This document shows, piece after piece, positions 11,004-63,270 of a stretch of DNA of 64,000 nt; the first letter of the stretch is position 1; each line of letters starts with the position of its first letter. Source of the DNA: Albula goreensis (lineage: Eukaryota > Chordata > Actinopteri > Albuliformes > Albulidae). The position numbers were made by a program, and so were the translations under genes. Location: positions 21,797,332 to 21,861,331 of the forward strand of contig CM040746.1 of the NCBI GenBank assembly GCA_022829145.1. The letters are read 5' to 3'. Below the pieces are notes generated by a model, which was not told the DNA's origin, searched no databases, and was given only the letters and a program-made list of their open reading frames with translations.

Positions 11004-14000
11004 ATGATGGGTCTGCGCTCAGCCCAGAAGAAGTTCTTCCCCCTGCGGGGTATTGATGGGATTGTGAGGCTGTTTGAGGCAGAGCTGCAGAAGCCTGAGC
11101 CAGACCTGGCCCTGCTCTCTCTGGTCCTGGGCTTTGTTGAGCACTTCCTGGCGGTGAACCGTGTGGTTCCTGCAAACGTACCTGGGGTCCACTTTGAACC
11201 ACTGGAGCCCGGCTGCCCTTCCTCCTGCTTCCCTACCGTGGAGCTGGGTCTTCTGTCTGCCATGTATGAGCGCTTCACCGCTCAGATCCGCGGAGCGGTG
11301 GACATGTCCCAGTACCGCCGGCCCGCAGGCGGGTCCAGCCGGGAGCTGGTAAAGAAGGTGTCTGATGTCATCTGGAACAGCCTGAGCCGATCCTACTTCA
11401 AGGATCGTGCACACATCCAGTCCCTGTTCAGCCTCATCACAGGTGACCATGAGATGATAGAGTAATCACTGAACGTGTAAAAGATTCAAAAAAGGACTAT
11501 GGTGGTTCATCCTCTTATTTATTTTTTGTGTCACAGCCTCTCTTTAAATGGAAAACATGTCAGAAGTACAAAAATGTCTTCTGAGAGAATGTGTTGAGCA
11601 GATATTTTATGTGGTTGATTAAATCATTGGAATTGTAGTATCAGTTGTTTTTGATGTGCCCTGTCATGGAAACAGTTTGGTATTGGCAGAATTGATAAAC
11701 TTGAATGGGGTATTTTATTTTATCAAAATTGAATGTAATTTCTGTGGAAAACAGACATTGGTTCCCAAACATTGCGCTGATGGCAAGCACAATCTGCTCT
11801 TCACCCTGTTATTTGTGACCAGGCACAAAGCTGGACAGTTCGGGGGTGGCCTTTGCAGTGGTGGCAGCATGCCAGGTCTTAGGGCTGCGGGACGTGCATC
11901 TGGCACTATCAGAGGACCACGCCTGGGTCATATTTGGCAAGGGTGGAGAAGAGACAGCAGAGGTCACGTGGCATGGCAAGGGTAATGAGGATCGGCGCGG
12001 TCAGACTGTCAGCGCGGGTGTTAGTGAAAGGGTGAGGCTCCCAATTTCCTCATGCAAAAGACTTGTATACCTGTATGTACACAGCTGTACCAGTCTGGAG
12101 TAATCTGCTAATGCACTTCATCTGTATGCCACACTGTATCTACAACTGTAAGCTGCATACAAACTGTACAGTACAGCTACACAGCTATACTTTTCCCCAC
12201 CATTGTATTATATACCTTAAGCATCTGTATGAAACAGAAACAGACACCTTGTGTTGACACACAACACAATTTACAGCTACAAACTGACAGACAGAAAACT
12301 CAAGATGGGTGATCCCGATTTCCATAACTGTGCAGGACTTTATATTCATGGACCTGTTTCATGTCCATATTTTCATACAAAACTATTTGACTACACAGTG
12401 TAACTGTGCTCAGTGATTATCATCTTACAGTAGTACTTGATGTAGGACACAGTCCTCAATGTATATGTTTGTTGTCTGGTTTTTTGGTGGTGTTTATATT
12501 TTTAGATCTGTGTTTCTATTGACTGAGCTTTGGATGTGGATTTCCTCATAATTGTAAATGTGAATCTGAATGTAATTTTGTGATGGTGATGTCAGAGCTG
12601 ATGAGAGACCCTCCTGTTGTACGATGGGGTTTAGATGACCACAGCATTTTCATAATGGTTCTTTTGTGTCTTTCCAAAAAAGAGTTGGCTTTACCTAAAG
12701 GGCTCCTACCTGAAATGCAATAGGAACATGGAGGTGGCCTTCATGGTGTGTGCCATCAACCCATCTGTGGACCTGCACACAGACAGCACAGAACTGCTCC
12801 AGCTCCAGCAGGTAGAGGCACTACACCACCTCACATTGCTGTATGAATCTGGAGTGAGGTCAACAGAATGAAAAACACTTTTTAATATACTCCTGTGCAC
12901 AGTAATGACAGGATTATAAAATATCGGTGACCACATATAACACTCGGGAAGCCATCTAAAAACATTAACTCACTATCTTTGAACAGTCTAAAAAGACGTT
13001 ACATTGATCTGTTGTAAGACATGCCTTTAACCCTGACTAGACACTGGACCTTATTCTCAACAGAACACAGCTTGATTGACTTATTTAAACAATTTGGTTA
13101 TTGACAAAATGTAATATAAATTCCTTTTTTAGAGTGTCGTAATACAGTCTTCACACAGCCCTAATGCAGTAATGTTCAATTATAGTTACATTCTTCAAAG
13201 TGCAATTACTTCAAACTGTATTATGTACTGATACTGTTAATAGCAATTCAATCTGACTTCAGATGGAATAAACTCAATTTCAGAAGGACAGGAGTTAACT
13301 CCTTAGACCCCTATTCAAAACTGCTTGTTTTTGTGATTAGTAGAACTGCTTTAAAAAGGGAATTCCTGCAGGACTTGACACTACAGTTGTCCTCATTGTA
13401 ACTGTACTGTGTGAGTAGGACTGTATTTAAAGTAAAACAGGGATACATAAACAGTATTTAGTTTAAGAGTGATTAAAGCCTTACTGATCCAAGGCTGGTT
13501 TCCTTCTCTTGTTCACCTTCTGCTGTGTGTTGTTTCTCTCTGCTCTTGTGCCCTGTCTCTGCACAGAGGCTGCTGTGGGTACTTTATGAGCGAGGAGATC
13601 TGGACAGGTGAGGAATGAAGGCTGCTGAAAGAGCCCATACACTTAATGCGTCTCTCCAGTGTCTGGACATAATTCCCAATCAGGCTGCCTTAACCTGCCA
13701 CCTAATATTCCCCTAGTTCCATTTGCTAATGAGTCCCTCCCTTGAAACTTCTGCTTATGTGTGGTGAGTGTAATGCTGCCAAATGGCTGCTATGAATAGG
13801 AAGGGTGGCTGAGGTGAGTTTCCCACCTTTGCTGTAAAGCATTGAAATGATTAAAATGCAGTCCATCATGCTTCCGTTATTTTTAATCTAGGATATAGTG
13901 AACAGTTATGTCAGTCAGAAATCCACAGTACATCCTAAAATGAATCATACAGTTTCTTCAAAAGATGGTGTCAGTATGTATACTTTGGAGATATGTTGTT

Positions 14001-17000
14001 TCATCATATGAGTTAGGATCTAGCCAGACGTTCAATGTTGAGGTAAACAAATTGCTCTTTGTTCAGGGAATGCATTTGAGATGACATCTTCCTCCTCAAA
14101 TCTTATCTTGGCAAAGCTACAATAGCTACTACAAAGTTGGAAAAGCTAGAACAACTGTCATTTGCCATTTTTTCCACCCTCAAAGCAACCTGGCTGTTTT
14201 GATAATCACCTTTTCAGAATAATGGCCTATACATAGTGTACTGTTATTTCTTGATTTAAAAATGACAAAGATTTGAGCATACAGGTAGCTGCTTATTGCA
14301 GCATTACTTTAACAAAACATACATTGTTTACAAAAAAAAAACTGTTGAACATGACACACTTTCAGGCCAGTTTGCACACATTGCGTGTTCAGGAAGCTAA
14401 TGTCCCTTGGGTCCCCCCCACTCCAGGCTCCAGCTGTTTGGCTTTTGGTCGATCTGTGATGACCTTTGCAAGAGCCTTCACGTTTGTGCCCACTTATATG
14501 TACACACACAGACTTGGGTGTTAGTGGACACTCCATGCTAGCGCCACATATTTCTGCTTTTAAAAGACTGACAGATAATTTACCAGTAAGTTACTGGTGC
14601 TTTCTAAAACCTGAAAAGTCTTCTCAGCTTGTAGTTTACCCACTTATCCACATATGTGCTCTTATGACTTACTGACTTCCAGTTATGTTTGCTATTCCCT
14701 CATGTCCTGCAGATACCCTATGGCCCTGGGAACTTTAGCAGACTTAGAGGACCAGGACCCAATACCAGGCAAAGACAGCCCCCTATCAATCCACCTCAAG
14801 GTGAGGCTATGGCTGCTCACTTAGGCAGGAAGTGCATGCTTTTATTTTTTGTGATGTGAATGTGTTCTCACTACAGTGGGAGGTCCACGAGCTAGAGGCT
14901 GGAATGGAACTTTTGTGGACCGGGGTAAAAAGTGTGGCTTGTTCACCTTCTGATGCACTGAAGCAATTTTTTTGCTGAATAGTTTTAATAAAACAGACAA
15001 TAAAGAGTAAAATGTCCACCTACATGTTGTCTTTGTGTCCTGTTTCAGGCTGTGAATTCTGCCAAGAAGTACTACAACAACGAGCACATCTACCCCTTCA
15101 TGTTCTTGGCAGGGTACCACTACCGGCACAGGAACGTGAGAGAGGCTTTGGGGGCATGGGCCGAAGCCTCCTCTGTCATGCAGGAGTGAGTTTTAAACCC
15201 TGATGAAAGCCACATCTAACATCTAACACTGGCAGCCTTTTTATGGCTGCAACAGTACGTATGTACAACATAGAGAGATTAGGAATTGGCTTCTGGCAAA
15301 TTGTGAGCGGAACACAGGATGAAAATTACAGCGATTACTAATCATTACCAACCAGCTGTATGGATTAAGCATGCTTCTGTGATACGACTTATGATTTACA
15401 ATCACAAGTAAATGAATAGATACTCGAGACGGACCAGACCAGTCAATGTAGTCGATGGTTGATATAAAACAAGTGGAACAAAAAAATAGATTCTGGGGTA
15501 TTTTAATACAACATTTATGAGATTCAACCGTTAATTCTCATTAATGTTCTTTATTGTGGTGACCTGTTATAACTTTCAATGACCACAAGGGGTCACTTAA
15601 AGTCAGCTTGAAAACTCCGCTTTAGTTTTTGAGTTGAGATTAGGCTATGTTCTTAGGGTACACTTGGGTATAGAGCAAACAAATATTTCTCTATTTCATT
15701 CATATTGATCTTTGTCTGAAAGGGGGGGATTTCATGTCAAACAATATTTAATTGGAATAAATATTGTTTTAAATGGCCTGTTTAACCCTTGTTGTCAAAA
15801 TCAGTCATGATGGGAAAGGTTTCAGCTGTGCCATGGTTACAGGCCATTCAGCAGGACATAATTGTTGTGAGCAGTGGTAAGAGAAGAAAGGGTCTTTGTT
15901 CAACTGTACAGCTCCCATATCATAGTAAAATAAGCAGAATAAAGCAGCATGTCCAGCATGGTATCATGTGATAGAAAAATAATGGTTCACCCACGGGCAA
16001 TAACAAAAAAAATAAGAGAGTACATATTCATAAAACTTGAAAAGCTGAAATGTATGTTATAACTCTCAGCTTAAATTTGCAACTATATACATGCAAATGC
16101 AGTACTGTGTTCAAACTAGAAATGGTGCACAAACATATTTATTATATGCATGTTTTAATTACATATTTAAAACCAGGAGTTGAATCTGTTTCAAAAGGAG
16201 ACCATGCAAACGTTTTCTTCCATAGAGAATAACCTTAGATAATTACTGGCTTTTCTATCCAATTAGATTGTGCAGTACTGTGATTGAGGCATAGAATCAA
16301 AGGAGTATTCCACTTCCTGATCTCCGTCTTCATTCTTAGCAGGAACTTTTTTCAGAACCCAGCCTGAAACCAGTACTCTGGGGACCGCCAACCTGCACTC
16401 TCCTCCCACTAAACACATATCACAACTGCCGCCAAAGCTAAATATATTGCTGTCGGCTTGATTTCTGGAGCTCTCCTGTCCACATGTCCCTGGAGGCATC
16501 TATACAGGGCACGCCCAGACAGAGAACATTCCCTGTTTCCCTTTCCTTTACTTTTTCCCCTCTGCATTTTTTCCTCTGCTGAGATTCAAATTCAGCAGCC
16601 ATTGGACATGCTTTTTGGGGAACTTTTCTGGGCCTGTCTATGTGTGTGTGTGAGGTAAGGTTGTGCTGAGATAAAGAAGTCTGAAAGACTGAACTGCGAT
16701 GGATAACCTCAGCACCGCCATGCTCAGTGGCCATGGTTTATTTGTGACTGTGCTGTCCAGTGGCAGTCAAAAGATTGCAGCCAGTGATTTGTCGCCACAA
16801 TGGGCGGCCCTTACATTCGCTTTCAAATCAGTTTCAACCATGAACAGCAACATGCTCTGATTGGCTCCAATCTGTCAGCCATTCAAAGCACATGAAACCG
16901 CACTCTCACAGCTAAGGGAACATGGCCCTTCTCACTGTGCTACATGGTGAAACATCACAAATGCAAGAGATTATGCTGAATGCATTAATCCCAGAAACAG

Positions 17001-19136
17001 CTTTCTTAATGGAAAAGGTTGTAGTCCTGATACAAACATCTCTCTTAAAATGTACTCTTGCACTGTGCCATCAAACTTATGGCTAACCCTTCTTTAATTT
17101 GTGTGTTCCCTAGCTACAATTATTTCCGTGAAGATGAGGAAATCTATAAGGAGTTTTTTGACATTGCCAATGATGTGATCCCCACCCTGCTGAAGGAGAC
17201 TGCGGCAGCTGCAGAGAGCAGTGAAGAGGGAGGGGACAGGGATGAGGGTGCAGAGAAGGTGAGCACCCCTTTTACCCCCTCATCACAGATGTTGAAAATG
17301 CATCCCCTCTGCCACAGTCGTCTTCCCTCAGCCCCATTCAGCTCCCTCAATATACTGTGTTCATGTTAAGATGAATATTAAATTGCTTTTTTTCTATTTT
17401 GACAACATATTCTTTGGGAATTAAACTGAGATCTAATATATTTTTCCTCATTTGCTTCATGACCCCTGTCTTACTCTTCTCTTTCCACCTTTTTCCCCCA
17501 TCTCTTTTCTTGTAACCTCATCAACATCTCTCTTCTCTCATGGTGGCATTCTTTCCCTTGTCAATCACTCTTTCACCTTCTCTCCCCCTTTCCTTTCTGT
17601 CCATCATCTTCTCAATTATCCACATCTCTCACTCATTTCTTGTTTCTGTCTAACCTCCTCCTCTCCTCCCTCACTCTCCTCTGCCCTTTCTCTGTATCCA
17701 TGCCTCTCCCTTTCCCCCTCTACCCTTTTATCTATTGCCTGTTCCCTTCACACTCTCCCCTTTGATGTTCCACCCCTGTCTCAGGACCAGCCTCGGCAGG
17801 CAGCTGCCCTCTCTGCTCTCCAAGACCCAGAATGCTTTGCACACCTGCTCCGTTTCTATGACGGCATCTGTAAGTGGGAGGAGGGCAGCCCCACACCTGT
17901 GCTTCACGTGGGCTGGGCAACGTACCTGGTGCAGTCTCTTAGTCGTTTCGAAGCACAGGTAAAATAAGAGCAAATATTTCTTTCTGCAGATGCTCCTACA
18001 TTACAATGATTGCCTTGAGCTATCTTGAAGAGGCAAAGAACTGTGCATGAAATAATATTATCACTGTGTTATTACATTCTTCAAGGGAAAATATGGATAT
18101 GTTTAGAATAAAAAAGAATATGTATTTGATCTTAGGAGACATTAAATGTTAATTTATTGGGATAAAGGATGTTACACCTACCTCTAAGGTTCATTTTACT
18201 TAAAAACATACTAATCAAACATTAGGTTCACTAATGTTACACTAAGGCATGCCAGGCAGATGAGAAGGTACTTCTGAAGATGGACTTTGAATTCAGGAAA
18301 TCCTATGAAAGTAGGGGATATTGTAGATTGAACGTTTTTGGATTGACTCAAAGATGTGCTCCTCTCTTCTACATAATGTGCTGTCCAGTCTGGCATTACT
18401 CTGCCAGATGCTTTGGTATTTATGTGCAACCTTTAAAATTCAAACATACAGGATTACCTTTAATTTTGATGAAAGATCCAGAAAGATTTTATAGGAACTG
18501 TGAAATACAGCAGCATGTGGTAACTACTTTAAGTCTTTGTTTGCACTGTAATAAAACATAGCTGCAGGAAAAAATTAGCATGTTGACAGGTCCCAAGGTG
18601 TCAAGTCCCATTGTTTGTTAATCCTCCCTCTGCAGGTGCGTCAGAAGGTGACCATCATCACTAAAGAGCCAGAGCCCCTGGATGATGATGACCAGTCTAG
18701 TGATGACCCTCGAGAGGGGCGGAGACGTGGCCCAAGGCGGGAGTCCAAAGCTGAAGACCCACCCCCTCCCCCAGCACAGCCTGCAGCACCGCCTGCTCAA
18801 ACGGCCCTGCCCAAGAAGGTTGGGGGAGAGGGTGGGGGACGTCGCCGCTCGTCCACAGGGGTGAGAGCCAGCGATTTGGAAGGGAAGCAGCGAGGGACTT
18901 CGCCCAGCCCTACCCCTTTGGCCCAGCAGCCTCTAGTGCCTGGTGGGCCGGTGGTTACATTCCACAGTGAAAAAATGAAGGGCATGAAGGAACTACTCTC
19001 AGCAGCTAAAGTGAACTCCAGTGCTATCAAACTGCAGCTCACAGCACAGTCACAGGTGCAAATGAAGAGACAGAAGCCTGTGCCAGCTGGGGACTACACC
19101 CTGTCTTTCATGAAACGACAGCGCAAGACTCTGTAG
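11004..19136 (+). CDS. men1: Menin, complete gene, nine coding exons
   Basis: Nuclear scaffold and tumour suppressor that binds MLL/KMT2 methyltransferases, JunD and LEDGF. Exons: 11004-11442, 11823-12031, 12683-12811, 13567-13607, 14713-14800, 15049-15185, 17114-17258, 17785-17958, 18636-19136; all have AG/GT borders and phases agree, giving about 619-620 residues (human 610-615). Hallmarks: [14 protein letters not shown] start, [97 protein letters not shown]. The basic motif [13 protein letters not shown] (about residues 479-491) and the end KRQRKTL match the nuclear localisation signals. Two ATGs lie in tandem (11004 and 11007); the second matches the human start. The frame stays open upstream to the acceptor at 10938. 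The variable acidic and Pro-rich stretch after residue 465 is usual for the family. Confidence 0.97.
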
Positions 19137-20808: not shown

Positions 20809-45408
<24,600 letters not shown>

Positions 45409-49128: not shown

Positions 49129-51857
49129 ATGTTCAGTCTGCTCCTTGCTCTTGTAATCCTCGAGAGGTCATGTAAGTCTTGAACTACATCTGTAAAAAAG
49201 AATGAAAAATATGATAACACAAATGGTATACAATATACAAAAAAGTTAATTGTATGATGTACAAAAAGGAAACATATTTTGTAATAGTTTGTAAAATAAC
49301 AGTTTTGGCTCTTTATGGTAAAAGATGATTGATGCACATTTGAAAAACATCTGGAAAGTGTTACTTATGTGTTGCAGGTGTGACACCAGAAAATGCCATA
49401 TTTCAGCCCCAACGGACTGTATCAGCTCAGGTGGGAGACTCTGTCACTTTGGAATGCTGCACACATACAGACAAAGCCAAACGCTGGCTATGGCTCAAAC
49501 ACTCCCCAGGTCAGGCTGCTGAGAGGATCATGTCAACATACTATGGCAATTCACAGCTACATGGGGACCTGAGGGACAGCGGCCGTGCCACAGTGAAGAT
49601 GAATGGCAAAAGCATTAACATGACTCTGTCAGCATTAAGATTCTCAGATGCTGCCATGTATTACTGTGTGCTGGCTGACTATGATGACTTTCTTTTTGGA
49701 GGGGGGACTTTTTTGACAATAACAGGTGAGAATCCAACCTTTTTTTTACTATTTTATTCATATTGATGAGACAGTTGAAGTTTACACTTTAGAATGCTTA
49801 CCTAAGGTTGACTCGGTTGGTGAAAAAACATATTTAAAAATGTTTATTTTTACATTTTCTCCTTTAGGGTCAGAATGCAGCAATGGGACAGTAATACAGC
49901 AGCCAGTGTCTGAGCCACTGCAGCCAGGAGACTCTGTGACTCTGCAGTGCTCTATACACACTGAGACCTGTGCAGGAGAACACAGTGTGTACTGGTTCAG
50001 ACAGGCCTCAGGAGAGTCCCTTCCAGGAATCATTTACACCCATGGAAACAGGAGTGATCAGTGTGAGAGGAGCTCTGGGGCTGGGTCTCCTACACAGAGC
50101 TGTGTCTACAAGCTCCCCAAGAGGAACCTCAGCCGCTCTGATGCTGGGACTTACTACTGTGCTGTGGCCACCTGTGGAGAGATCCTGTTTGGGAACGGGA
50201 CCAAGCTGGATATTACAGGTGATGTGTTGTTTACTGTTTCATGCAGTAAATATCTAAAATTGTACAGAATTGCTTTTACTGTTAATAGTTTATTAAAATA
50301 TTTCACCCCAGCTGCCATTAACATCTGTTCAAATGAGCTTCTCAAATAAAGAGCTGTCAGTCTGATGCGTGCTGTTGGGCAATGAATCACTGTATCTCCT
50401 CAAAATAATCCATAAACTCTCAAATCACACAAGTGAAGAGGACTGAATGATCAGAAATGTGGGCATTTGCACATTGTGTGTCTCTGTGTGCCAATCTGTG
50501 AGCCATGGCCATTTCATACATAGTTATACATGGCTATTTCATGTCATACTTTCAGTGTGATTGTTTCAATTATTATTGGGGGTTTAAATTTTAATGTGAA
50601 CAATGTACAGTAATCTAAAATATGGAAAATATAGAAATGAATAGTGTTTAATAAACTGCTGCACTTACAGCAAAAAGAACTCAAATGACCATTCACAATA
50701 CACCCAAAAATTTGCTCAGAGTTAAAATGAAAGGTCTGATAAGATTGTTTAACTTAAACAATAACTTAAATGTTATTGAACCATCATTCTAACACATATA
50801 CAAAATAAAAAGATGACATTTTTTAATTAATTTATTTAATAAATATGAATGGCAAACATTTTTCTATGATTTTTGTATTGACATTGTATCTCAGCATTCC
50901 TTTGTCCCTAACACATAATTGATTTTGTATTTATGTTTGTATTATATTAAAGAATCCATATCATTGCAATTTTAAGGTTAGGTTATTCGGAAGCCATGTC
51001 ACAACTAAATAATAATCACAGACCATAATCTGTTAAAATGTTTGTAATCCTATAAAGAAGCCCTATTTTGAATCTTTAAATGTACAGAATTTTAGTGGAT
51101 GATTTAAAGTCTTCATAGGGGATAATACAGGATCAGTTTGAACATATATGATATTTCATACTTACCTAATCAGTGACTCAGCGTGTCTGTTTCTCTGTTA
51201 TTATGTTATTTTGCATGCACTGAATACAAAATTAGGTACTGATTGATCTCTGTGCCGTTACTGTGTTCCATCCTGCAGGCTCCCTGGGACAAGATGCTGT
51301 CGTCTTTGGTTTGGTAGCAGTATGCATGTGTTTTCTGATTGTGATTGTGATGCTACTATGCAACTGGATCAGACATTGTCCAGGTCTAATTCAACCCACA
51401 GCGTTTTCTTTGTTATGATTAAAAATATTTTACATTCCTTAAAATGACCCAGTATGAATTTAAATAACCCTATTTTTACTTTGTGTTCAGGCTGTTCACG
51501 AAAGCACAAGCACTCAGACAACACATCTTCAAGCAACCAGGTAAGGACACAACCATGCAGAAGACCCTCAGAATTTGTATTAAACTTACAGCTAAATTGG
51601 GCTGAAATACAGTTAGAACATTAGGAAAATCAGGGGCAAATGTTAGGGGCATACATATATTAAAAGTAGGAGCAAATCATATTATGATTTCTCATAAGAT
51701 ATGATGGTAACACTCTTTTTGTCCATGTTTTTTTTAACAGAACATGGACACAGACGGACTAAATTATGCCGCATTGAATCTTAATCGCAGTAAATCACGC
51801 ACCAGAGGACATACGGAAAGTCACATTTTGTACTCTCATGTAGGAAACCGATTTTAG
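49129..51857 (+). CDS. Novel immune-type receptor (NITR)-like, two Ig domains, inhibitory type
   Basis: Type I membrane immune receptor. Exons: 49129-49171 (leader MFSLLLALVILERS), 49378-49725 (first V domain), 49868-50218 (second V-like domain), 51279-51383 (transmembrane), 51491-51540, 51741-51857; all phases join, giving 337 residues. Domain 1 has VTLECC, a Trp in WLWLKHSPGQ, DAAMYYC, and a J-like FGGGTFLTIT in the same exon. Domain 2 has VTLQCSIH, VYWFRQ, DAGTYYC and FGNGTKLDIT, plus extra Cys pairs. V exons with a fused J-like motif and a second Ig domain of this kind are the NITR hallmark. The transmembrane part (about 254-275) has no charged residue, so no adaptor pairing is expected. 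The tail carries LNYAAL (Tyr 308) and ILYSHV (Tyr 330), both fitting the ITIM consensus. Ligand unknown. The exon 4 donor GTCTAA is weak. Confidence 0.88.
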
Positions 51858-52062
51858 TACTCAATTTCAATGTACACTACAAGACAAATCATTAAAAATC
51901 ATTAGCTATGCAGTTGATCAACAGTTGTAATGATGCCACAGCCACCTTAAAATACACTCACACACACACACACTCACACGCATGCACGCACACACACAAA
52001 CTATATGATTGTACATTTACTTTAATTCATTTTTCTTGTCATATATTTTAAACATTTATTTG

Positions 52063-52068
52063 AATAAA
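52063..52068 (+). terminator. Poly(A) signal AATAAA of nitr-A
   Basis: Canonical hexamer 206 bases after the stop codon at 51857. Confidence 0.6.
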
Positions 52069-53187
52069 GGTATGAAAGTATGCAAACTCAAAGTTTCTGT
52101 AACTGATGGTTGCAAGAAATATTCAATACAATTTAAATATCTTTTTTCATAAACAATGTTTGTGGTATTGGCCCTTTAGAGGTAAAATATTGACACTCTT
52201 TCCAAGGTACCTTATTTATTTTTCTATATTTCATGTTGCAAAATTATTTCATTCAATTGGGAGATTTGTTTTATATGCTCTTATGTGATGCAATCTGGTT
52301 TAATCTGTTATAAAACAGGCATACTTTCTCATAGAAATGAATCATGGTCATACTGATTATAGCTTTAAAATCATGTAACTTAGCTTAAAAATCTCTCAAC
52401 TTATTTTTTATGAGTCTGAGATTAAGTAAGAATTGATGCTATTTTCACAAAAAGTTCATCTTGCAGCAAGAAAACACATGTGCATTCTAGATGTTGTATG
52501 TCATTCACTTATTGACTTATTATTTTACACTTAATTCAAATGTACAAATTATATTCTGATTCTCTATCTTTAACCATTGGTTGGGTGAACATAACCAAAC
52601 TAAATTCCCTTTTTAAAATCTTGAATGTTGTACCCTGTACTAAATTCAGTCAAGTTCTACTTATACAGATGGAAATGTCCAAGTCATAGTATGGAAAATT
52701 GATGATTCCAGGTTTAGAAAATTTTAAATACATTTTTTTGCCATCCATTGACTAAAAATTGTCATCTGAGTCTTTAGCACACTACCACTGCCCACCACTA
52801 GATGTCTATATTTAATCATGGCACCAGGGTCCATCGAGTGTCTTATCACATTTAAACTGGACATCAGACCTGCACTGGAGACATCTTGGTTTATACTGAC
52901 ACAAGGATAGTTTCAAGAACACACATCCATGGCACAGACAGTAATAGCCTCCATGATTTATATAATTTGTGCAAGGATTACAACTTGAGGCTTTGTATTG
53001 AAATGGTAGTTAATTTACCATCATCTTTTTGTGTCAACCTCTAAAGCAGGAGCCACATGTTACTAAAGTTTGTACAAGACTGCTTTTGATTAAATTACAT
53101 TACATTTTAGGTATTTAGCTACTAAAGTATGTAAATCACTCTGGATTAGCAGGTGTGCTTATCCACAGTGATGTAAATACTTATGTA

Positions 53188-53475
53188 CAGGGGGGTCCTC
53201 GACTTATGAACGAGTTCCGTTCCTACGAAGTGTTGTAAGCCAATTTTCGACATAAGTCAGAATTTCTACCTAAATTATACCTAAAATATATAAAATACAG
53301 TAATTAAATGAAACAGTCATAAAAAAGAGAGAACAATTCCTTACCTTTTTTTCTGTGGTTGTATTTACGAACCAAACTGCTTAGGTCGAAACTAGGTTTT
53401 TTAAGTAATTTATGGGAGGGCGTCGTAACCATGAAATGATGTAACTTGAGACCGTCGTAATCCGAGGACCTCCTG
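53188..53475. mobile_element. 288-bp TA-flanked MITE
   Basis: The left end CAGGGGGGTCCTCGACTTAT and the complement of the right end (CAGGAGGTCCTCGGATTACG) are inverted repeats of about 20 bases. TA flanks both sides (53186-53187 and 53476-53477), fitting a Tc1/mariner-superfamily MITE. Confidence 0.8.
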
Positions 53476-53496
53476 TAGTTTTTTTGACAGGAATTG

Positions 53497-53718
53497 GGGC
53501 AGCCTATAGTCTAGTGGCCAAGGTACATGACTGGGACCACTGAGGTTGGCGGTCTAAGTCCTAGCCCAGCCACAGCAAGAACACCATTGCTGTTGGGCCC
53601 TTGAGCAAGGCCCTTAACCCCACATTGCTCCCAGGGGAGACTGGCCCTTGGTTAGTCTAATCAACAGTAAGTCACTTTGGATAAAAGCGTCAGCTAAATG
53701 ACAGTAATGTAATGTAAT
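53497..53718 (+). mobile_element. tRNA-derived SINE
   Basis: The head holds a box A-like TAGTCTAGTGGCCAAGG and a box B-like GGTCTAAGTCCTAG, as in a tRNA-derived pol III promoter. The tail GATAAAAGCGTCAGCTAAATG followed by short GTAAT repeats is the common 3' end of fish SINEs. A perfect six-base duplication, GAATTG, flanks it (53491-53496 and 53719-53724). Confidence 0.85.
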
Positions 53719-54420
53719 GAATTGTCAATTGAATTGAAATCAAGGACATGTCTTGATCAATGGAAATCTCTTTTGGAAGAATAAATTAAACAGTGCCTAT
53801 GCCAGGGTTTTGGCTGATATAATACAGGGGGAATGTTAGTATCTCAGGGTATTGTGTTACATAATCCACTGGGGCTAATACAAAGCTCTGGCACTTCAAT
53901 CAAATGGCCCATAGCAATTCTTTCAAAGGGGGGCTCAGTTAATCGTTGCAGATGCTTGGTAGCAGAACTTTTGGAAAAGTCACCAAGATTACCGTATGAC
54001 ATTTAGGGCACCTCATAAGTCATACATTTGATGAGCTGGTTTATAATTGATTGAATAGTTGATTGTTCCATACATTTGAAGGACTGGCTCATTAACTAAT
54101 TGATGACCTAAGCATAGTGGCTGTTTAGTGTTGAATAATGGAATGGCTCATAAAAATGATTGAATTACAATTGATTCCCTGAATAGGAACCAGGCATGAG
54201 TCTTGCACTGGAGTCGTCTTGGTTTCCACTTACACAAGCACCACTGCCACACAGCCACAAATATTGTCACAGACATTCAACCTATTGTACAATTGACTGA
54301 TCTTATAAAAAAAAAGAAAACACACACAAACACCACATTATCTTACAACATTTGCAGAACTTTAACCACAAATACTACTTTTATGAGAGAGGGGGAGAAT
54401 GTGTGAGACAGCAAATGATA

Positions 54421-54464
54421 TGGAGATGGTGGTGGGTTGGTGGGGGTTGGGGGGGTGGGGGTGG
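54421..54464 (+). other. G-rich tract, G-quadruplex candidate
   Basis: Several runs of three to seven G separated by one or two T or TGGT lie within about 45 bases, fitting the G3+N1-7 pattern. Confidence 0.6.
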
Positions 54465-55876
54465 TACACTTATAACCTCTCCATAACCTAATCATATTTA
54501 ATATTCCACTATTTACAATTATGTATTCTTTACCATTGTCTGTTTTGTAAAATAAATTACAGCTTGAATTGAACTGTAACTCTGTGTAAAATTAAATGCA
54601 TAAGCAGAGTGCCTTTTCATTCTCTTTGTGCTTGCTAAGCATTGCATCTACGTAAACACGACCTATGTAGCTGACATTTCCTTGAAGCTGTACATGTTGT
54701 ACTCTAGCATGTGGAATGGTTGTGTACACTCTTCTATTTAAATAAAGTCAGAAAGATTTAACTTATGAGCTATTAAATCAACAGCTAAATCAACTAACCA
54801 ATAACGTCTATACATTTGGAAGATGAATGTTAGATATATGCCCTACTCATAAACATCCCCCCAAAGGAATGTGATAGTGCTGACCCCCTCATAGAAATAA
54901 GGGTTCATTGCAGTTCCCTAAAGATTCACAACATGCTGAAGAGACTCGGCCTTCTGTGATCATGAGACAGAGTAGTGAACTGTATATTTTTTCTGTCAAG
55001 GAACACCTGGGAGAGGTAAATCTTCCAGGATGAGCTGACACCAGCAATTGCTGCTGAGATGGTGTGCATGCCCATATTCCAGGTGCACACCCTACACCAA
55101 TGGTACATAAACATTCACTGAGATTGATAAAACAATAAGGGTTCTATCTTGCATTTGGTACAAAGTAGCATTAAGCAGTAACATAAGTGCTTTTGCTAGT
55201 TTCCACTCAGCATACTTGTAATTTTAATTTAATTTTAGGCTAAGTGCTGTAACCTAGGCTCAACCTTAGGCCCATTTGGGCATGCAGTTCTTAAGATGAG
55301 GCGTGGTCAGGCCCATTGGCGATGCATTGCTATCTTGCGTGTAACTGAAAGGGATTGCATTTCTACCAACAGAAACCACATCTTAAGTCATATTGCAATT
55401 GTTAATTTCTATTTTAACTGCAGAGTGTCAAGATAGTGATGCACGGGTAGTTGTAAAACCATGTAAGTTACACTTACCCTGTTAAACTGTAACAGACAAC
55501 AAAATCCCACCTCCTTGTTGCACTTAATTCCTTTGTAGGTGGGTAGATACATTCCTGAGTAGATACATTAAATTCCCTATAACACCAGCCAGCCAAGAAT
55601 AGGAGTTCATGGCAAATTTTGGGTTCCCTCAGTCATTCATTTGGTCTTCTGGGGGCGTGGGCCAGTTGAACATTTCACACATGTACACAATTAAATGGTC
55701 TTGTAATAAAAGACATTAAAAAGAGTTTTGATATTTGATCCGTGATCTTTACAGCGTTTTCGCTGAATAAACTAACCCTCATGAATATATTTAAATACTG
55801 ATGTGTATTGCCATGACTGGTCAAATAATTAGGCAGACAGGCAAAGTAGAGGGATCAGAAGATCATAAATCCATCC

Positions 55877-55882
55877 TTTATT
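55877..55882 (-). terminator. Poly(A) signal AATAAA of nitr-B (minus strand)
   Basis: TTTATT on the plus strand, about 350 bases past the nitr-B stop codon at 56234. The intervening 3' UTR would include the CA array. Confidence 0.45.
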
Positions 55883-56016
55883 GACCTTGCACTTGACCAT
55901 GTGCCCATATAATCTCCCATTAAAATAGCAAAAGTGACTTGGTCATGCCCCAAGGTGCACTTCTGACCAAATTTTACCTCCAAGCACTTAGATGGTTACA
56001 AAAATGATTGCATGTT

Positions 56017-56132
<116 letters not shown>

Positions 56133-56233
56133 AGATTTTTAAAAAAATATTTTGTTTTTCCTTTCTGCTGTCCTGGGCAGAGGATGGGTAATTATATTGA
56201 TGGGTTCAAAGCATACAATGAAGTGCAGAGATA

Positions 56234-59231
56234 TCAGTGCTGCTGAACTCTCACTTCTGTATAAAGGACAGAAGTGTCGACGTCCCCCCTGGCTCTCCTT
56301 TCTTTGTTTTTGCTGTGAGTAAATTTCAGAGCAGCATAATGCAATTTATCTGCAGGCTGAAAAATAAGTAAAATATGCAAGTTATAATCAAACACAAATG
56401 TAGCATTTAAAAATACATGTTTAAAAATCTCTGTTCTACCTCTCCACTGGTATTTAATGATGATAGATATCTGATTGATGTCCAAACAATTTAAAACATA
56501 GCCTCTGTAGTTTTAAGCTTTTATTTATATATAAACCTATAGTCTTTCTCTGTTATTTCAATTGTCACTGATTTCCATTATTAATGCTGCTCTTACCTGA
56601 TGTTCAGTTTGTTGGCCCATATTTGTTCTCTTACAGAAAATCAGGACCACAATCACAATGACAGATACTGCATTTGTTGCAGCCAAAACGGGGATCATGT
56701 AATGATATGTGGAGAGTTTTCCTACAATGTAAAAGTAATAAATAATAACTTGTTATTTTTTGTGGGATAATTGTATACTTTTTTGGTAATTTTAATGGAT
56801 GTTAATATAGATTATGTATAGGTAAACTACTTCTGAATAATGTTGATGATACAGAATAAGATTAAGGATATAGAAAAAAAACATACCTGATTTGTCTTTG
56901 GTCCCTTCATCAGTTCTGTTGAAGTGCAAATCTTATTTTGAAACAAACATAGTTAAATCAGAAACATTTCCATATCATCTTATCCAATCAAGTTTAAATA
57001 TGAACTTTCAAAGGCTCTTGCTCATTGAACAAGTAGAGGTAATATTTTTTCTTTACCAAAAGTATTTTCTATTCAGCAGGCTGACAGAATTGCCAAGCAA
57101 TGTGCCCATACACACACACCAATGTTACGGCTCTCCTCACACAATGTGCCCATACACACACACCAATGTTACGGCTCTCCTCACACAATGTGCCCATACA
57201 CACACACCAATGTTACGGCTCTCCTCACACAATGTGCCCATACACACACACCAATGTTACGGCTCTCCTCACACAATGTGCCCATACACACACACCAATG
57301 TTACGGCTCTCCTCACACAATGTGCCCATACACACACACCAATGTTACGGCTCTCCTCACACAATGTGCCCATACACACACACACCAATGTTACGGCTCT
57401 CCTCACACAATGTGCCCATACACACACACCAATGTTACGGCTCTCCTCACACAATGTGCCCATACACACACACCAATGTTACGGCTCTCCTCACACAATG
57501 TGCCCATACACACACACCAATGTTACGGCTCTCCTCACACAATGTGCCCATACACACACACCAATGTTACGGCTCTCCTCACACAATGTGCCCATACACA
57601 CACACCAATGTTACGGCTCTCCTCACACAATGTGCCCATACACACACCAATGTTACGGCTCTCCTCACACAATGTGCCCATACACACACACCAATGTTAC
57701 GGCTCTCCTCACACAATGTGCCCATACACACACCAATGTTACGGCTCTCCTCACACAATGTGCCCATACACACACACCAATGTTACGGCTCTCCTCACAC
57801 AATGTGCCCATACACACACACTCATGTTACGGCTCTGCTCGCACAATGTGCCCATACACACACACTCATGTTACGGCTCTCCTCGCACAATGTGCCCATA
57901 CACACACACTCATGTTACGGCTCTCCTCGCACAATGTGCCCATACACACACACTCATGTTACGGCTCTCCTCGCACAACCATCATTTGAGAAAGCAGATG
58001 ATGAAGTGCTCTCAATTTTCAACAGAGGCACAGACTAGAGTGCCGAACCATTTTATGAAATGCTAAGTCTATGTCTAACAAGCTAGTTTACTTTTTGACA
58101 GGCTACCTATGACCAGACCATCCATAAACTTGCTTGCTATGTATATATATGCTACATATTAGTAAAAATTTCACTTATTAAGCTGGCCTGTAAGGATTTA
58201 TTTAACTAGTTAGTACATATATAATGCCAATTATATACTGTATATTATACTGTCTTTTTAGATCTCTGTAGGAGTGAATTTGTAGAAAGGGATTCTATTT
58301 TAAACAAACTTATTTTTCAGATGTAAACAGATTTAAAACTCAAAAAAGAACATGGATTTTCTGTATTGGGATGAAAGCTGATTGGACAAGGATATCAAAT
58401 TAGATGATGCCCTCTGTAAGCAAATGCACAGGTTTACGCTGTGCCATTGTATCAATATCCTGTGTCGCCTGAACATAAAAATTAATGAATTTAAAGTTAG
58501 AATGAAGGTCTCTGTAAAAGCCAACTGAGAATGTGCTGTGACACACAAACAAGTAATAGGAAAGCAACTCATTCTTTACCATTTGTTCTTTCTTCAAGAA
58601 TCACTCTGGTACCATTTCCAAAGAACACCTTATTAAAGATGTGGGCACCACAGTAGTAAGTACCTACATCTGACTGGTTGGTGTTGAAAAAGTGTAGGTT
58701 GAAGCTGTGTCTGCTCTTCTTTACTTGAAGTCCAGAGTGTTTCTCGAAACCTCCACAAAAATGATAATCTTCCAGATTGGAGGAACCAGTGACTACACAG
58801 TCAGGCACTTTCCCCAAGGAATTTTTAAACCAAAAAACAATGAAGACGTGACTTTGGGACAAGTAGCACTCCAGAGTTACTGAGTCCCCGGGATGAACTC
58901 TGACAGCATGAGTAGATTGTGAGATGAATTCCTCACAATATATGTCTGTAAAGACAAATGTGCAAAACCATTATATAGCATTCTTAAAAAAATGTGTTTG
59001 ATGAAATGAAACAATAACTGGGTTGTTATATTATTATCTTTACTCTGTCTACAGGTTTGTAATGCTTTTTTATGCCTGTTATTTAGAAAAATGCTCAAGT
59101 ATCTCTATTATTTCCCTGAGTTCTTCAAGTATCAAGTATACAATTTTTTACTTACGTAGATCATGGAAAAGAACACAATAAAGAAATAATAAAATGATGT
59201 AAGCTCTGTCAAAAGGAGGAAGCCTTGCCAT
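56234..59231 (-). CDS. NITR-like receptor with one V domain, inhibitory type
   Basis: Exons in reading order: 59231-59156 (leader MARLPPFDRAYIILLFLYCV), 58945-58580 (V domain), 56931-56887 (linker), 56721-56597 (transmembrane), 56356-56234 (tail). Phases join throughout (1,1,1,0), giving about 244 residues. The V domain shows PGDSVTLECYLS, FIVFWFKN, SDVGTYYCGAH and J-like FFGNGTRVIL, all in one exon as in NITRs. The 15-residue linker (LHFNRTDEGTKDKS) has one N-glycosylation site, and its acceptor was chosen because the nearer AG at 56916-56917 would break the frame. The transmembrane part (IPVLAATNAVSVIVIVVLIF) lacks charge. The tail has LHYAAL (Tyr 211) and VLYTEV (Tyr 236), both ITIM-like. 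Unlike nitr-A it has no second Ig domain. Antisense frames in this locus come from a minisatellite. Confidence 0.85.
57099..57976. repeat. 44-bp minisatellite, about 20 copies, in nitr-B intron 2
   Basis: The unit begins AATGTGCCCATACACACAC and ends GGCTCTCCTCACAC. Most copies are identical; three differ by one CA step (42 or 46 bases). The last four copies (from about 57800) share changes: CTCATG for CCAATG and CTCGCAC for CTCACAC. It takes up about half of the 1.65 kb intron between the V exon and the linker exon. Confidence 0.95.
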
Positions 59232-59331
59232 GTCTCTTGTGCGAGCTCAGTTGGAAAAATGGCTCAGTGCTGGACAGATTTTCATGTGAAAGGAGGGGCA
59301 TGTATCAGAAATTTGTAAAAACTGATCCGTG

Positions 59332-59336
59332 ATTGG
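59332..59336 (-). promoter_or_regulatory. CCAAT box upstream of nitr-B
   Basis: On the minus strand CCAATCAC lies about 100 bases before the nitr-B ATG, similar in distance to the CCAATCAG of nitr-A. No clear TATA box follows. Confidence 0.4.
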
Positions 59337-59949
59337 GTGTATTGAGAATAGTTCTTTGACATAGTTACTACTAAACACATTTGTCTAAACTAAGGGCATG
59401 ATTTTCCACTGACAATGGAAAATTTTCCGGTGACAGTATTTAAAAACATGCTGTAGGGAAATGTTTTGTTTTAAAAGTATCAGACAAACATGCAAGTAAA
59501 TATTGCATTTAAGTATTACTACTGCAGCTATTTAAAGTGATGGAATTTAGATTTTGGATGAATGAAAGCTATTTTAAAGTGACTGTCACAGTTGCTGTTG
59601 CCATTGCCTCCAATAAAAAATAGACATCATTTATCATACTTGCAATATTAACATTTAGAAGCAATCCTAATGTAATGTATTTTACTGTGTTAGATAGGTA
59701 AATACCACACTATGTTGAGACTGCATTAAGTTGAGACTACTTATGATAGTGAGTCCCAAAGATGAGGGGTTCCCCCCCTCCCGTAAAGGGAGATACGCCC
59801 TTACAGTGTAAAGTGGTTGGAGAGTGTCCTGTACTGTTTTCCACAGCAGATGAGTCACTGAGGACTTTGCTTCCTCAGACTGTGTCCTGTGCTAAGACAC
59901 CCACAGTTGCACAGTAGCTATTTTCCACTCTATTACCCCCACAGTGGTC

Positions 59950-60475
59950 TACTGTCAGGACAGGGCAAGGGACTCAGGCACAGACAGATGTAAAATAAAC
60001 CATGGTTTATTGCAGCCAAGATCAAAACACAAGTCCAAACTCAGGGTCAAAACCAATGCAGACTTGCCAAAGGTACAGAAACACAATCCAGAAAGGGAAG
60101 ACAAGGAAACAGGCAAAAGGTTCAACGCCGGCAAAATTCAGCAGTCAGACAAAATCAGAATCCAAAAAATCGAAAAAAAGGAAAACAGACAAAGTCACAA
60201 CAGATAGTCAGGAACAGAAAGGTTTGTAACTACGCAGAGAGAATAGCCCAACTGAGACGAACTCGCACAGAACACAGGTCAAAGCAGGATATGAATGCAG
60301 GCAGGTAATGAGCATGAGCGATAAGGGAAACAAGGCCAAAGGTGGGATGGACAGAAAAGGAAACATGGAAACAAAAGCACATGGACTGGGGAAATGAAGG
60401 AAAATCAAAACACACGAAAACAGACGAACAAGACTGAAACAAAAATACATAACAAAACACAGCAACTAACATGAT
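59950..60475. repeat. Probable dispersed repeat of uncertain class
   Basis: A long A/C/G-rich, T-poor stretch with many CAAAACACAAG, AGGCAGG and GGAACAG words looks like a family common in teleost genomes. I see no terminal repeats or coding part that would fix its class. Its strong composition bias differs from the surrounding AT-rich DNA. Confidence 0.35.
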
Positions 60476-62421
60476 CTATCACTCAGTTTGTGTGTGTTAC
60501 ACATACATTTGCAAACTCCACCAGCAAACCAAAAAGGCTGCTCTTTAAATGGCGTAAGAAGGCAAGTATATAAAACTATTTTTTAACAAACCTGTCAGCC
60601 ATTGTTTGATTACATCATTCCAATCCTTTATTTTGGTCTTTGAATAGTTATTTATTAATGAATTTAAACAGAATTTCAGGGGTATTCCAGTACTTCAGGA
60701 GGCAATAATAGCTCCAACACGGAATGTCATAAATAAACAGGAAAGAACAAAACTGTACAAGTTTTGGACATTTTACATGTAAAAGTATGAAATGTTCCTG
60801 ATTTTGTATAAATTTTATATATATTTTTGGCTAATGAGACTGTAGAGGGAGGAATAGATTTCAGTGATTTTGAAAGAGGGACCGATGTGGTTTATTTGAG
60901 TTTCTGTAAACAAAACTGCTGAACTTCCTGTTGTTTTACATGCAACTGTGGTGGAGTGCTGTACAACTACAGAAGAAGCCAGCCACCTCCCACAGCTCCC
61001 CCATATATGAGAAGATATATAATCTCCCCAATCACATACACAAGCCATTATCATACTACTTTGGTTTACTGACACTATTTAGTAATACTCACACATTGAC
61101 AGAATGAACTCTACTTCATTATATCTGAGGAATGGAGGATGGCTACAAAACAAGTGTGACCACAAAACAAAGCAAAGTCTGCACATTACGACCAAATAAT
61201 TGACATACTCAAAATTTTTACAGTAGGATAAATGTATTCAGCGATTTTCTGTTCACCTTTAACAACAAATTTACAACAAACTGGAAAGGAATGTTTTTTC
61301 CAATGTCCAGAGCACAAACACATTCTATGCCTAACACAACATTTTCAATAAGAACTTTACCTGGGGTCTCTAACAACCCTCTCTGGTGGTGTTGGGTATT
61401 AAATTAGGACCACATATAAGTTATTATTTTGGAGAAAGCAGCTAATTCCTTTTAGTTTGCTTGAACAGAAGTATTGTAATTAAGATAAAGAGACAGCACA
61501 ATCTGTGATGTAACAAATTTATTAACAAATAATTTATAAGACAGAGGAATTATAATGTTTTATATACTGTATTATATGTTGATCAAATGATGAAATAGAA
61601 TAGTTATGTCCTTAAATCAAATTTTGTGAATGTTATTCTCAGTTTGTCTGGTTGGTTGGTAACAACAAACTTGAGGGTCCAGCTGGTCTGTTGCAAGAGA
61701 GGCTTACTTTGTCTGCTGTAGAGTGACTGGTTATGTGTCTGAAAGGTGCCCTTTGGCTGCACACTGGGGCCTCAAAAAGAAGAATGCAGGCCACAAGTGA
61801 ACTCAAGAGAAGATACACAAAAGAAGGAGCCAAAGAATCTTCCCTCTCCTCCTTTCTATGGGTGCAGGAAACTATATCCCATCTGACCAATCAGTGTTGA
61901 TTGGCACAGAATGAACAGGACGTCCATCCCACATGTACAGGAGCAAGCCAGCTCTGATATCAGAACAGTCTGTAGAAATGTGGGGCTCTTCCCATTCCTT
62001 CACTTTATTTTGAGGAAAGATGTCAAGCCGCACATACCAGAACACTAATACATCTGTCTGTTGATGGTGTAGAAGGGGAAATGAGAATCTCAAATGGTTA
62101 AGCATTACTCAGCTATTAATGTAACAAGAGTGTATGTTACACTGCTGCATTATGAAAATATACCCAAGGCAACATTTTATATTTGATAGGACTTACATCA
62201 CGTGAAGAAGCACGCATGGCCTTCATATCCTCACTATGTGATGTACAATATTCAGCATAATAAGGCAGATAAACTCATGTTTTTACAATATTTTCCCTCT
62301 TGTGACTATGCAGGCTACGACTCTATCATGAATTATATTGTGTCACCGATGATTTCATATTCAAGATAACATGTACAATATAAATTGTTGTATAATCAAC
62401 AGATACATTCAGATAATATTT

Positions 62422-63270
62422 TCAGTTTTGCTTTTGGCACCTTAAACCAGTATATACAACATGGGAGTCTAACTCACTCCTCTGTGTCCCCTTCTTCATG
62501 TTCTTCCTGGAAAAATTCAGGGCCACATAATTCATCTCCTCCGGACTCTGAGAAGGAGAACCAATGAAACAACCTCGACTAATATGACTGACAGCAGAAT
62601 CTGGAGTTCTTTTGAAGAGTGTGGCATATGATACATAGTTATTTACCATAAATGATCTTTACCATAAATACTATGAATGGTATTTACCACAACATATTTC
62701 TCTCACAAAAGACGTCTCAGCTAAATACAAATGAACAAAAACTCAGAAAAAAAATTGCCAGACACAATCAATTGGGGAGGCTAAACTCTTTTTTGACTGA
62801 ATTATTTTAATTGGGATACAATTTACACAGTAAATATCCTTTATTCATCCAGGACAAAATAAATTAAATAAATGTATTTGAATAATTAATTTGTATAATT
62901 TATATTAATGCTTTATGTCATGGGATTTCAGAGTCATTGTAGGATTGTATATCAGAAATAGAAAATGCTATGATGAGACTATGTTGCCTCAATGTGAGGA
63001 CTATAATCTGACAACTGACTCAAGCATCTGATCAAAGGAGTGTCCAACTGGGGCCATCCCTCCTGGACATTTGCGCTTTACTCCACAGAACTGTCATTGC
63101 TATTAGCACAAGGAGTAAATACTGTATGAAATCATGTCACTTCCGAGTTACGGTTAAATCCAAAACCAACCACACCATAATTTTAGGAAATGAAATAAAT
63201 AAAAAATAGCATACCTCTATGTCTGAGGAGGTGGAATGGGTATAGCCCTGTAGAGTTTGTTGAGGTGTGC
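62422..63270 (-). pseudogene. NITR-like gene, 3' part; partial or decayed
   Basis: Last exon 62547-62422 encodes SPEEMNYVALNFSRK and ends with HVVYTGLRCQKQN and a stop. Its acceptor (CCTTCTCAG), phase 0 and two Tyr motifs (MNYVAL, VVYTGL) match the tails of nitr-A and nitr-B. Upstream, 63270-63215 is a good linker exon candidate (TPQQTLQGYTHSTSSDIE, CAACAG acceptor, GTATGC donor, ends phase 0). Between them, 63121-63082 starts after a TACAG acceptor with YLLLVLIAMTVLW, a possible transmembrane exon, but it is short, its donor (GTAAAG) leaves phase 1, and no exon to restore phase 0 was found. No leader or V exon appears from 63271 to 64000. It could be intact with V exons beyond the window, or a pseudogene. 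Confidence 0.5.

Follow-up and report, generated by a model that had tools for sequence, protein, structure and literature searches.

A NITR cluster whose border lies in the 64,000-nucleotide stretch of Albula goreensis chromosome C6 analysed here (the window) consists of receptors of a known type; what is unusual is that the DNA of one exon, coding for the I domain, is virtually alike in ten genes and seems to act as a joint at which stop and go signalling ends are swapped. That this near-identity is upheld by repeated ectopic gene conversion, together with purifying selection on the protein, is strongly supported by our sequence comparisons. We consider it probable that the exon kept alike by conversion serves as a joint between V modules and differing signalling ends, and that paired receptors arise from it. 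All comparisons were made within one genome and on its sequence alone.

Three receptor genes are found beside men1 and map4k2 (Table 1), one on the plus and two on the minus strand with genes 1 and 2 converging, as the preliminary description had them. Gene 1 joins six exons into a single reading frame of 1,014 nt (49129-51857) and gene 2 four exons into one of 690 nt (59231 to 56234, minus strand); for gene 3 (minus strand) the window holds the two cytoplasmic exons only, its leader, V, I and uncharged transmembrane parts following at most 2.1 kb past the right edge. All three V domains exceed the 26-bit threshold of Pfam V-set, well outside chance. The J-like FGxGT endings described earlier for the V exons of two genes were found in genes 1 and 2, and the V exon of gene 3 (C6:21862717) differs by a variant ending, FENGI. 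Uncharged transmembrane segments, likewise described, are present in all three genes, that of gene 3 outside the window, and each tail indeed bears two tyrosine motifs; in gene 3, VVYTGL is a canonical ITIM and MNYVAL a variant. Scanning for tails with two ITIMs gave many chance matches, and only matches placed in genes were used.

Table 1. Receptor exons and neighbouring genes, in coordinates of the window
Feature	Position	Strand	Basis
Gene 1 leader exon	49129..49171	+	in-frame gene model
Gene 1 V exon, FGGGT end	49378..49725	+	in-frame gene model; Pfam V-set
Gene 1 I exon, six cysteines, FGNGT end	49868..50218	+	in-frame gene model; I-core search
I core, 273 bp, inside gene 1 I exon	49915..50187	+	near-identical in 10 genes of the genome; 11th copy truncated
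Gene 1 transmembrane exon, span without charged residue	51279..51383	+	in-frame gene model
Gene 1 cytoplasmic exon 1	51491..51540	+	in-frame gene model
Gene 1 cytoplasmic exon 2, ITIMs LNYAAL and ILYSHV	51741..51857	+	gene model; motif scan
Gene 2 leader exon	59156..59231	-	in-frame gene model
Gene 2 V exon, FGNGT end	58580..58945	-	in-frame gene model; Pfam V-set
Gene 2 transmembrane exon, uncharged	56597..56721	-	in-frame gene model
Gene 2 cytoplasmic exon, ITIMs LHYAAL and VLYTEV	56234..56356	-	gene model; motif scan
Gene 3 cytoplasmic exon 1	63215..63270	-	gene model
Gene 3 cytoplasmic exon 2, MNYVAL and VVYTGL	62422..62547	-	gene model; motif scan
men1	10920..19136	+	menin matches at 10920-11465 and 18579-19136; Pfam Menin E 4.3e-50, 3.4e-28
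MAP4K-type kinase exons	26078..28937	+	called map4k2 by synteny

With uncharged spans and ITIMs, genes 1-3 are type I receptors, as NITRs are, and of the inhibitory type. Genes 1 and 3 combine a V with a six-cysteine I domain, which marks them as NITRs, and the earlier naming of the family is supported by this domain together with the J-like motifs, exon layout, ITIMs and synteny. In gene 2 an I exon was looked for and none was found, so that it lacks the six-cysteine domain; we file it as a single-V NITR on account of its location, V domain and tail, and because NITRs without an I domain are an already described subset (PMC2442602).

PDB matches of the V and I domains are for the most part antibodies. 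The NITR10/11 entries, which we take to be from catfish, were matched by the V domain of gene 2 at 51.7 and 45.6 bits and by that of a further unit, A103, at 76.0 and 70.5 bits, antibody entries scoring higher in both cases, and none of them is among the 60 matches listed for the V of gene 1. Within its own genome 23 of the 25 matches of the gene 2 V fall on C6. The ten V proteins compared have a median identity of 28% (45 pairs). A V-domain tree, in which two of the four outgroup rows are not V domains, did not resolve the branching and no conclusion is drawn from it. Two units, A87 and B29, were not found to have a V exon upstream and may be pseudogenes or V-less forms.

Menin and the MAP4K-type kinase exons lie left of gene 1, which is the map4k2-men1 location of NITRs. 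Three putative kinase-exon peptides, joined, gave MAP4K3 and MAP4K1 as best PDB matches, while three of five ORFs had no match in Pfam, including two single ORFs among these exons. The proposed anchoring to a conserved men1-map4k2 block was borne out, Menin by Pfam and the kinase exons by PDB, but we reject this linkage as a novelty, as it has already been described for zebrafish (chr7) and medaka (chr18) in PMC2442602. The suggestion that the window shows the border of a larger cluster gains support from more I-core copies, which lie at C6 21.862-21.910 Mb and 23.110-23.123 Mb. Searching the 932-Mb genome at the DNA level, with the core stretch moved by 3 bases (49918-50190), gave 11 copies, 10 intact and 1 truncated, all of them on C6 in two clusters separated by 1.2 Mb, which does not support a cassette scattered across the genome. 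Weak I-like matches occur on C9 (46 bits) and C20 (37 bits), and a V match on C4 reaches 34 bits, against 32 bits for gene 1's own V.

Among its 10 intact copies the 273-bp core varies in 8 columns, with a mean pairwise difference of 0.79%; all eight are third codon positions, seven of them synonymous and one exchanging Q for H. The cysteines of VTLQC, HTETC, SDQC, QSC, YYC and ATC are present in all ten, genes 1 and 3 included. The surrounding DNA is of another kind: in 50-bp bins flanking the core, apparent identity to gene 1 is 0-58% when gaps are scored as mismatches, and introns and V exons of the I-bearing genes are mostly unalignable. GC content is 54.9% in the core, 41% and 48% in two V exons, and 26% and 31% in two introns.

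To the inhibitory receptors of the window the C6 clusters add three units, A87, A92 and B39, predicted to be of the activating type, with an arginine in the transmembrane span, a stop in the transmembrane exon and no tail; the view of a purely inhibitory cluster holds for genes 1-3 and is ruled out for the whole by these units. Two pairs, A92/A112 and B39/B35, have 98.0% and 99.3% DNA identity over V and I and opposite predicted signalling ends, which were read from the nearest downstream exons rather than from complete gene models. A92 (arginine span) and A112 (uncharged span, predicted LTYAAV tail, two candidate tail exons) have V, intron and I in common; B39 (arginine span) and B35 (uncharged span, LHYAAL tail) share a predicted leader-V-I as a palindrome. 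As judged from their DNA, both would be paired activating and inhibitory receptors with near-identical ectodomains. In both, homology breaks off where the I exon ends. A third pair, A87 and A92, has I and the arginine-bearing transmembrane part in common, with no homology immediately upstream, and an I-TM intron that differs by 23%.

It may be objected that, although the I exon does undergo conversion, the pairs are ordinary duplications whose breakpoints fell near that exon by chance. Informative junctions number only three, and B35/B39 homology overshoots the predicted exon end by about 25 bp. A simple duplication broken at the I exon would suit both pairs, since they are recent inverted repeats whose core is hardly better conserved than the remainder (1307/1328 bases identical outside the core in A92/A112, 1772/1776 in B35/B39). 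Against chance stands the use of the same exon at all three junctions, its 3' side in two cases and its 5' side in the third, and we regard this explanation as rather unlikely, if still a serious competitor.

Strong purifying selection on the I domain of an ordinary NITR cluster, with no need of conversion, is in our opinion quite improbable as the main cause. Selection clearly has a share in the uniformity of the core, as only one residue of the protein differs, and six highly conserved cysteines are reported for I domains in PMC2442602. However, synonymous sites are nearly frozen too (mean difference 3.4%), and in four pairs whose flanks have diverged yet can still be aligned, the difference amounts to 9-15% in the flanks of these exons, against 0-2 of 273 core bases: A87/A92 (core 272/273, flank 465/539), A92/A97 (273/273, 143/168), A97/A103 (272/273, 74/84) and B29/B35 (271/273, 87/96). 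Fisher tests, which set coding core against mainly non-coding flank, gave p 5e-13 for the first pair and 1e-11 for the second. Even the truncated I exon is preserved (113/115 core against 87/101 flank bases, p 0.001). Gene 3/A112 was omitted from the eight core/flank pairs, as the core was not located there and no split could be made, and B35/B42 also has many short repeat matches, which were not used. It is this difference between flank and core that speaks for ectopic gene conversion acting with purifying selection.

Recent duplication with fast-diverging introns, to which the recent inverted duplicates A92/A112 and B35/B39 lend some colour, is very improbable and, like selection alone, was rejected as the main cause: synonymous sites of the core would need to match the introns in age, and 42 of the 45 pairs among ten intact I-bearing units have in essence the I exon alone in common, three sharing more than this exon with its adjoining intron stretch of less than about 100 bp, and one further pair an extra 115-bp tail match, with V proteins as divergent as stated above. 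An assembly artefact, in which read correction or misassembly homogenised the exons and misjoined haplotypes made the inverted pairs, is equally hard to believe in spite of the short-read cross-mapping trouble reported for herring regions including a NITR cluster (PMC11088111, excerpts), since the 224-kb and 80-kb stretches examined contain zero N, exon ends and introns retain their differences as little as tens of bases away from the core, identity between unalignable genes is beyond what correction can create, and the two members of each pair end differently.

The origin of activating and inhibitory receptors of the same specificity is an old question of NK-receptor biology, and chromosome C6 shows the parts of a possible answer: V exons that diverge on one side, signalling ends of two kinds on the other, and a near-identical exon in the middle. 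In the conversion reading, the divergent V domains probably bind ligand, the membrane-proximal I exon would be homogenised between genes by ectopic gene conversion, and recombination at it would join V modules to different signalling ends; we see a joint here on the grounds of near-perfect identity in genes otherwise mostly unalignable. An arginine-containing span would recruit a Dap12-like adaptor, and an uncharged span with an ITIM tail would recruit phosphatases, the outcome being at least two activating/inhibitory pairs with the same ectodomain. More tentatively, and with somewhat less than even confidence, we may suggest that the I exon is a germline recombination joint in active use, whose identity is kept by conversion, while crossovers re-plug V modules onto go or stop ends and individuals differ in the result. 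The uniformity of the core prevents crossover points from being located. A joint predicts breakpoints at the I exon that vary among individuals. For NITRs of this genome, I-domain trees and short-read mapping to the I exon are misleading.

Activating and inhibitory CEACAM receptors reportedly coevolve (PMC2832619); these are mammalian and belong to another Ig family than the NITRs described here. On zebrafish chr7 and medaka chr18, NITR clusters share with the present one the map4k2-men1 position, V and six-cysteine I domains, J-like motifs, ITIM tails, arginine-bearing activating members (Nitr9/NITR9) and I-less members (PMC2442602). The Results of the medaka paper, where 36 I domains are drawn as a tree, report neither a DNA-identical I exon nor an activating/inhibitory pair with a shared ectodomain, unlike here, and the terms 'conversion' and 'recombination' are absent from the main text of that paper (PMC2442602). 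The zebrafish NLR-B30.2 genes are likewise a large fish immune family in which gene conversion differs by domain, but they are NLR and not Ig genes, and the excerpts of PMC4852459 describe no activating/inhibitory swap at a converted exon. Siglec-11 and Siglec-16 (PMC5701461) are also activating and inhibitory receptors whose ectodomains are kept similar by gene conversion; there conversion between the two genes affects the region with the ligand-binding exon, whereas here it is the membrane-adjacent exon that is common to all ten intact I-bearing units, and the V exons differ.

In the receptor units of C6, the chromosome that carries the window, a 273-bp stretch of the I exon (the I core) is almost invariant at the DNA level. 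Eleven I exons with 600 bp on either side were aligned and compared with gene 1 in 50-bp bins, gaps being counted as mismatches; identity to gene 1 is 94-100% in the five bins within the core of the other nine intact copies, and 0-58% in the flanking bins. Among the 10 copies the core has 8 variable columns, all at third codon positions and 7 of them synonymous, which cluster at its 5' edge (5/8 within the first 36 bases); two copies differ by 2.16 bases on average, 10/45 pairs are identical, and the synonymous difference averages 3.4% of 63.7 sites, with a maximum of 9.4%. For the V proteins, median identity over the 45 pairs among 10 sequences is 28%, the two V exons that recent duplication has copied entering once each. 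GC content is 54.9% in the core; two V exons have 48% and 41%, two introns 26% and 31%.

The family and its location are already known, and the assignment to NITRs, proposed in the preliminary description, is an ordinary one that rests on I domain, layout and synteny. The six cysteines by which the medaka study recognises NITRs (PMC2442602) are present in the I domain of genes 1 and 3; menin exons and MAP4K-type kinase exons lie to the left of the receptors here, and in zebrafish and medaka the larger NITR cluster adjoins map4k2 and men1 (PMC2442602). Genes 1 and 3 have the layout V-I-TM-cytoplasmic and gene 2 V-TM-cytoplasmic; an I domain was searched for in gene 2 and not found, and I-less NITRs are a described subset (PMC2442602). 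Within the window the exon sets of gene 1 (+) and gene 2 (-) are complete and in frame, and gene 3 (-) has there two cytoplasmic exons only, its leader, V, I and TM exons lying within 2.1 kb beyond the right edge. At a Pfam V-set cut-off of 26 bits, the V domains score 50.8 (gene 1), 55.8 (gene 2) and 65.8 bits (gene 3), and the gene 1 I domain 51.7. Searched against its own genome, gene 2 V gives 25 matches including itself, 23 of them on C6; the best besides itself has 77 bits, gene 1 V just 32, and the two off C6 have 34 (C4) and 29 bits (C7). Its PDB matches include NITR10 and NITR11, ranked below multi-domain antibody entries; neither was among the 60 PDB matches listed for gene 1 V or I. 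The uncharged transmembrane segments and paired Tyr motifs described earlier were borne out, the TM spans of all three genes being without charge and the tails carrying LNYAAL/ILYSHV (gene 1), LHYAAL/VLYTEV (gene 2) and MNYVAL/VVYTGL (gene 3).

The larger cluster expected beyond the window is also found, as further I exons occur on C6 in both regions listed in the table. The gene 1 I domain was searched for at the protein level (150 of 455 candidates scored) and its I core at the DNA level (11 of 11 scored). Both searches pick out the same 11 strong I exons, every one of them on C6, of which 10 are intact and one is truncated; the remaining protein matches among those 150 have at most 46 bits, most of them being on C7. 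Of the 10 intact I-bearing units, 8 have V exons, and the scans used detected none upstream of A87 or B29; A79 and A86 are single-V units with ITIM tails. Units are named by kb position (g1, g2, g3, A87, A92, A97, A103, A112, B29, B35, B39) in stretches A and B, each with zero N bases, and the complete gene models are those of genes 1-3 only.

Stretches, receptor features and other arrays and repeats
Feature	Location	Remark
Window	C6:21797332-21861331 (+)	
Stretch A	window and 160 kb to its right	A coordinate = window coordinate
Stretch B	80 kb starting C6:23080001	
I exons, first region	C6:21.847-21.910 Mb	seven
I exons, second region	C6:23.110-23.123 Mb	four
I core	window 49915-50187	
Tandem repeat, gene 2 V-TM intron	window 57098-57978	unit ~88 bp
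NITR-like V match, second cluster	C6:23092903-23093184	internal TAG, probably pseudogene
Tail exons, two single-V units	A 76615-76753; A 83167-83305	
ORFs like Tc1-like transposase and LINE reverse transcriptase	A 189489-190025; A 197628-198209; B 59411-62132	by eye
V-set matches	C7:36.30-41.53 Mb (5.2 Mb)	about 95 (hand count) among 150 scored of 1,603 candidates; possibly an immunoglobulin heavy-chain locus of unusual size
V-set arrays	C17:3.69-3.80 Mb; C17:4.44-4.45 Mb	two members (L005, L007) look like antibody light-chain V genes
Further V-set exon array	C24:12.39-12.52 Mb	

The pattern of sharing between units and the sequence of their ends are direct observations. Each of the 10 intact I-bearing units was compared with every other by blastn (E 1e-6), and in 42 of the 45 pairs the common DNA is the I exon with less than ~100 bp of intron, one of these (A103/A112) having an extra 115-bp tail-exon match at 75.7%; gene 2 has no DNA in common with the 10 units at the same threshold. 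Homology breaks at the I exon in all three exceptional pairs. A92(+) and A112(-) have 1,612 bp in common at 98.0%, from the V splice acceptor to just beyond the I exon end, and their predicted leaders differ; the next TM exon of A92 (LLSIIRIGILISFVL) holds both Arg and stop, and A112 has an uncharged TM exon at this place, downstream of which lie a predicted LTYAAV tail and an alternative candidate for the tail exon, with TNYTAL. B39(+) and B35(-) lie in a palindrome whose arms, ~2.06 kb long and 99.3% identical, span predicted leader, V, intron and I and stop ~25 bp past the predicted I exon end; beyond them B39 has an Arg span (LLSVIRTGVLLCML) with stop, and the span of B35 is uncharged, its tail bearing LHYAAL. 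A87(+) and A92(+) match in both I exon and Arg-TM exon (119/125) and do not match over the 51 bases upstream (17/51). As its V side is common to A112 and its signalling side to A87, A92 looks like a mosaic with the junction in the I core. The cluster, supposed to be inhibitory, would be so in genes 1-3, with uncharged TM and ITIM tails, and not in A87, A92 and B39, with their Arg TM. The pairs may have arisen at the I core, through crossover or conversion; in them the Arg span would recruit an adaptor, in line with what is reported of zebrafish Nitr9L and Dap12 (PMC3463160), and ITIM tails would inhibit.

Wherever a pair retains alignable, diverged flanks (everything outside the core in the local alignment, including exon ends), the core is much more alike than these: 272/273 vs 465/539 in A87/A92 (Fisher p 5e-13), 273/273 vs 143/168 in A92/A97 (Fisher p 1e-11), 272/273 vs 74/84 in A97/A103 and 271/273 vs 87/96 in B29/B35. 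At the flank rate of 13.7%, ~9 synonymous differences would be expected in the 63.7 sites of A87/A92, and the core shows 1 in all. The youngest pairs are uninformative (A92/A112, core 273/273, outside 1307/1328; B35/B39, 272/273 and 1772/1776). The truncated copy, whose I exon lacks its 3' part, has 113/115 in the core vs 87/101 in the flank (p 0.001). Because protein selection alone should not preserve synonymous sites or a broken exon, we infer conversion, and because 7 of 8 core differences are synonymous, selection acts as well; judging from these sequences, both appear to shape the I core. The tail exons of two single-V units in stretch A are 95.0% alike over 139 bp, other matches of this pair being two longer ones at 71-73% and a 52-bp piece at 81%; a second exon-limited conversion is possible there.

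Activating NITRs with an Arg-bearing membrane span are described for one gene in zebrafish and three in medaka (PMC2442602). By title or abstract start, no report of a DNA-identical NITR I exon or of activating/inhibitory NITR pairs was found among the matches listed, from mostly open literature, and within that scope the exon-limited DNA identity and the tail-swapped pairs, seen in one assembly, would be new forms of something already described. Siglec-11/16 are a known case of an activating and an inhibitory receptor whose ectodomains undergo conversion with each other (PMC5701461), and in zebrafish NLRs domain-specific conversion is known (PMC4852459).
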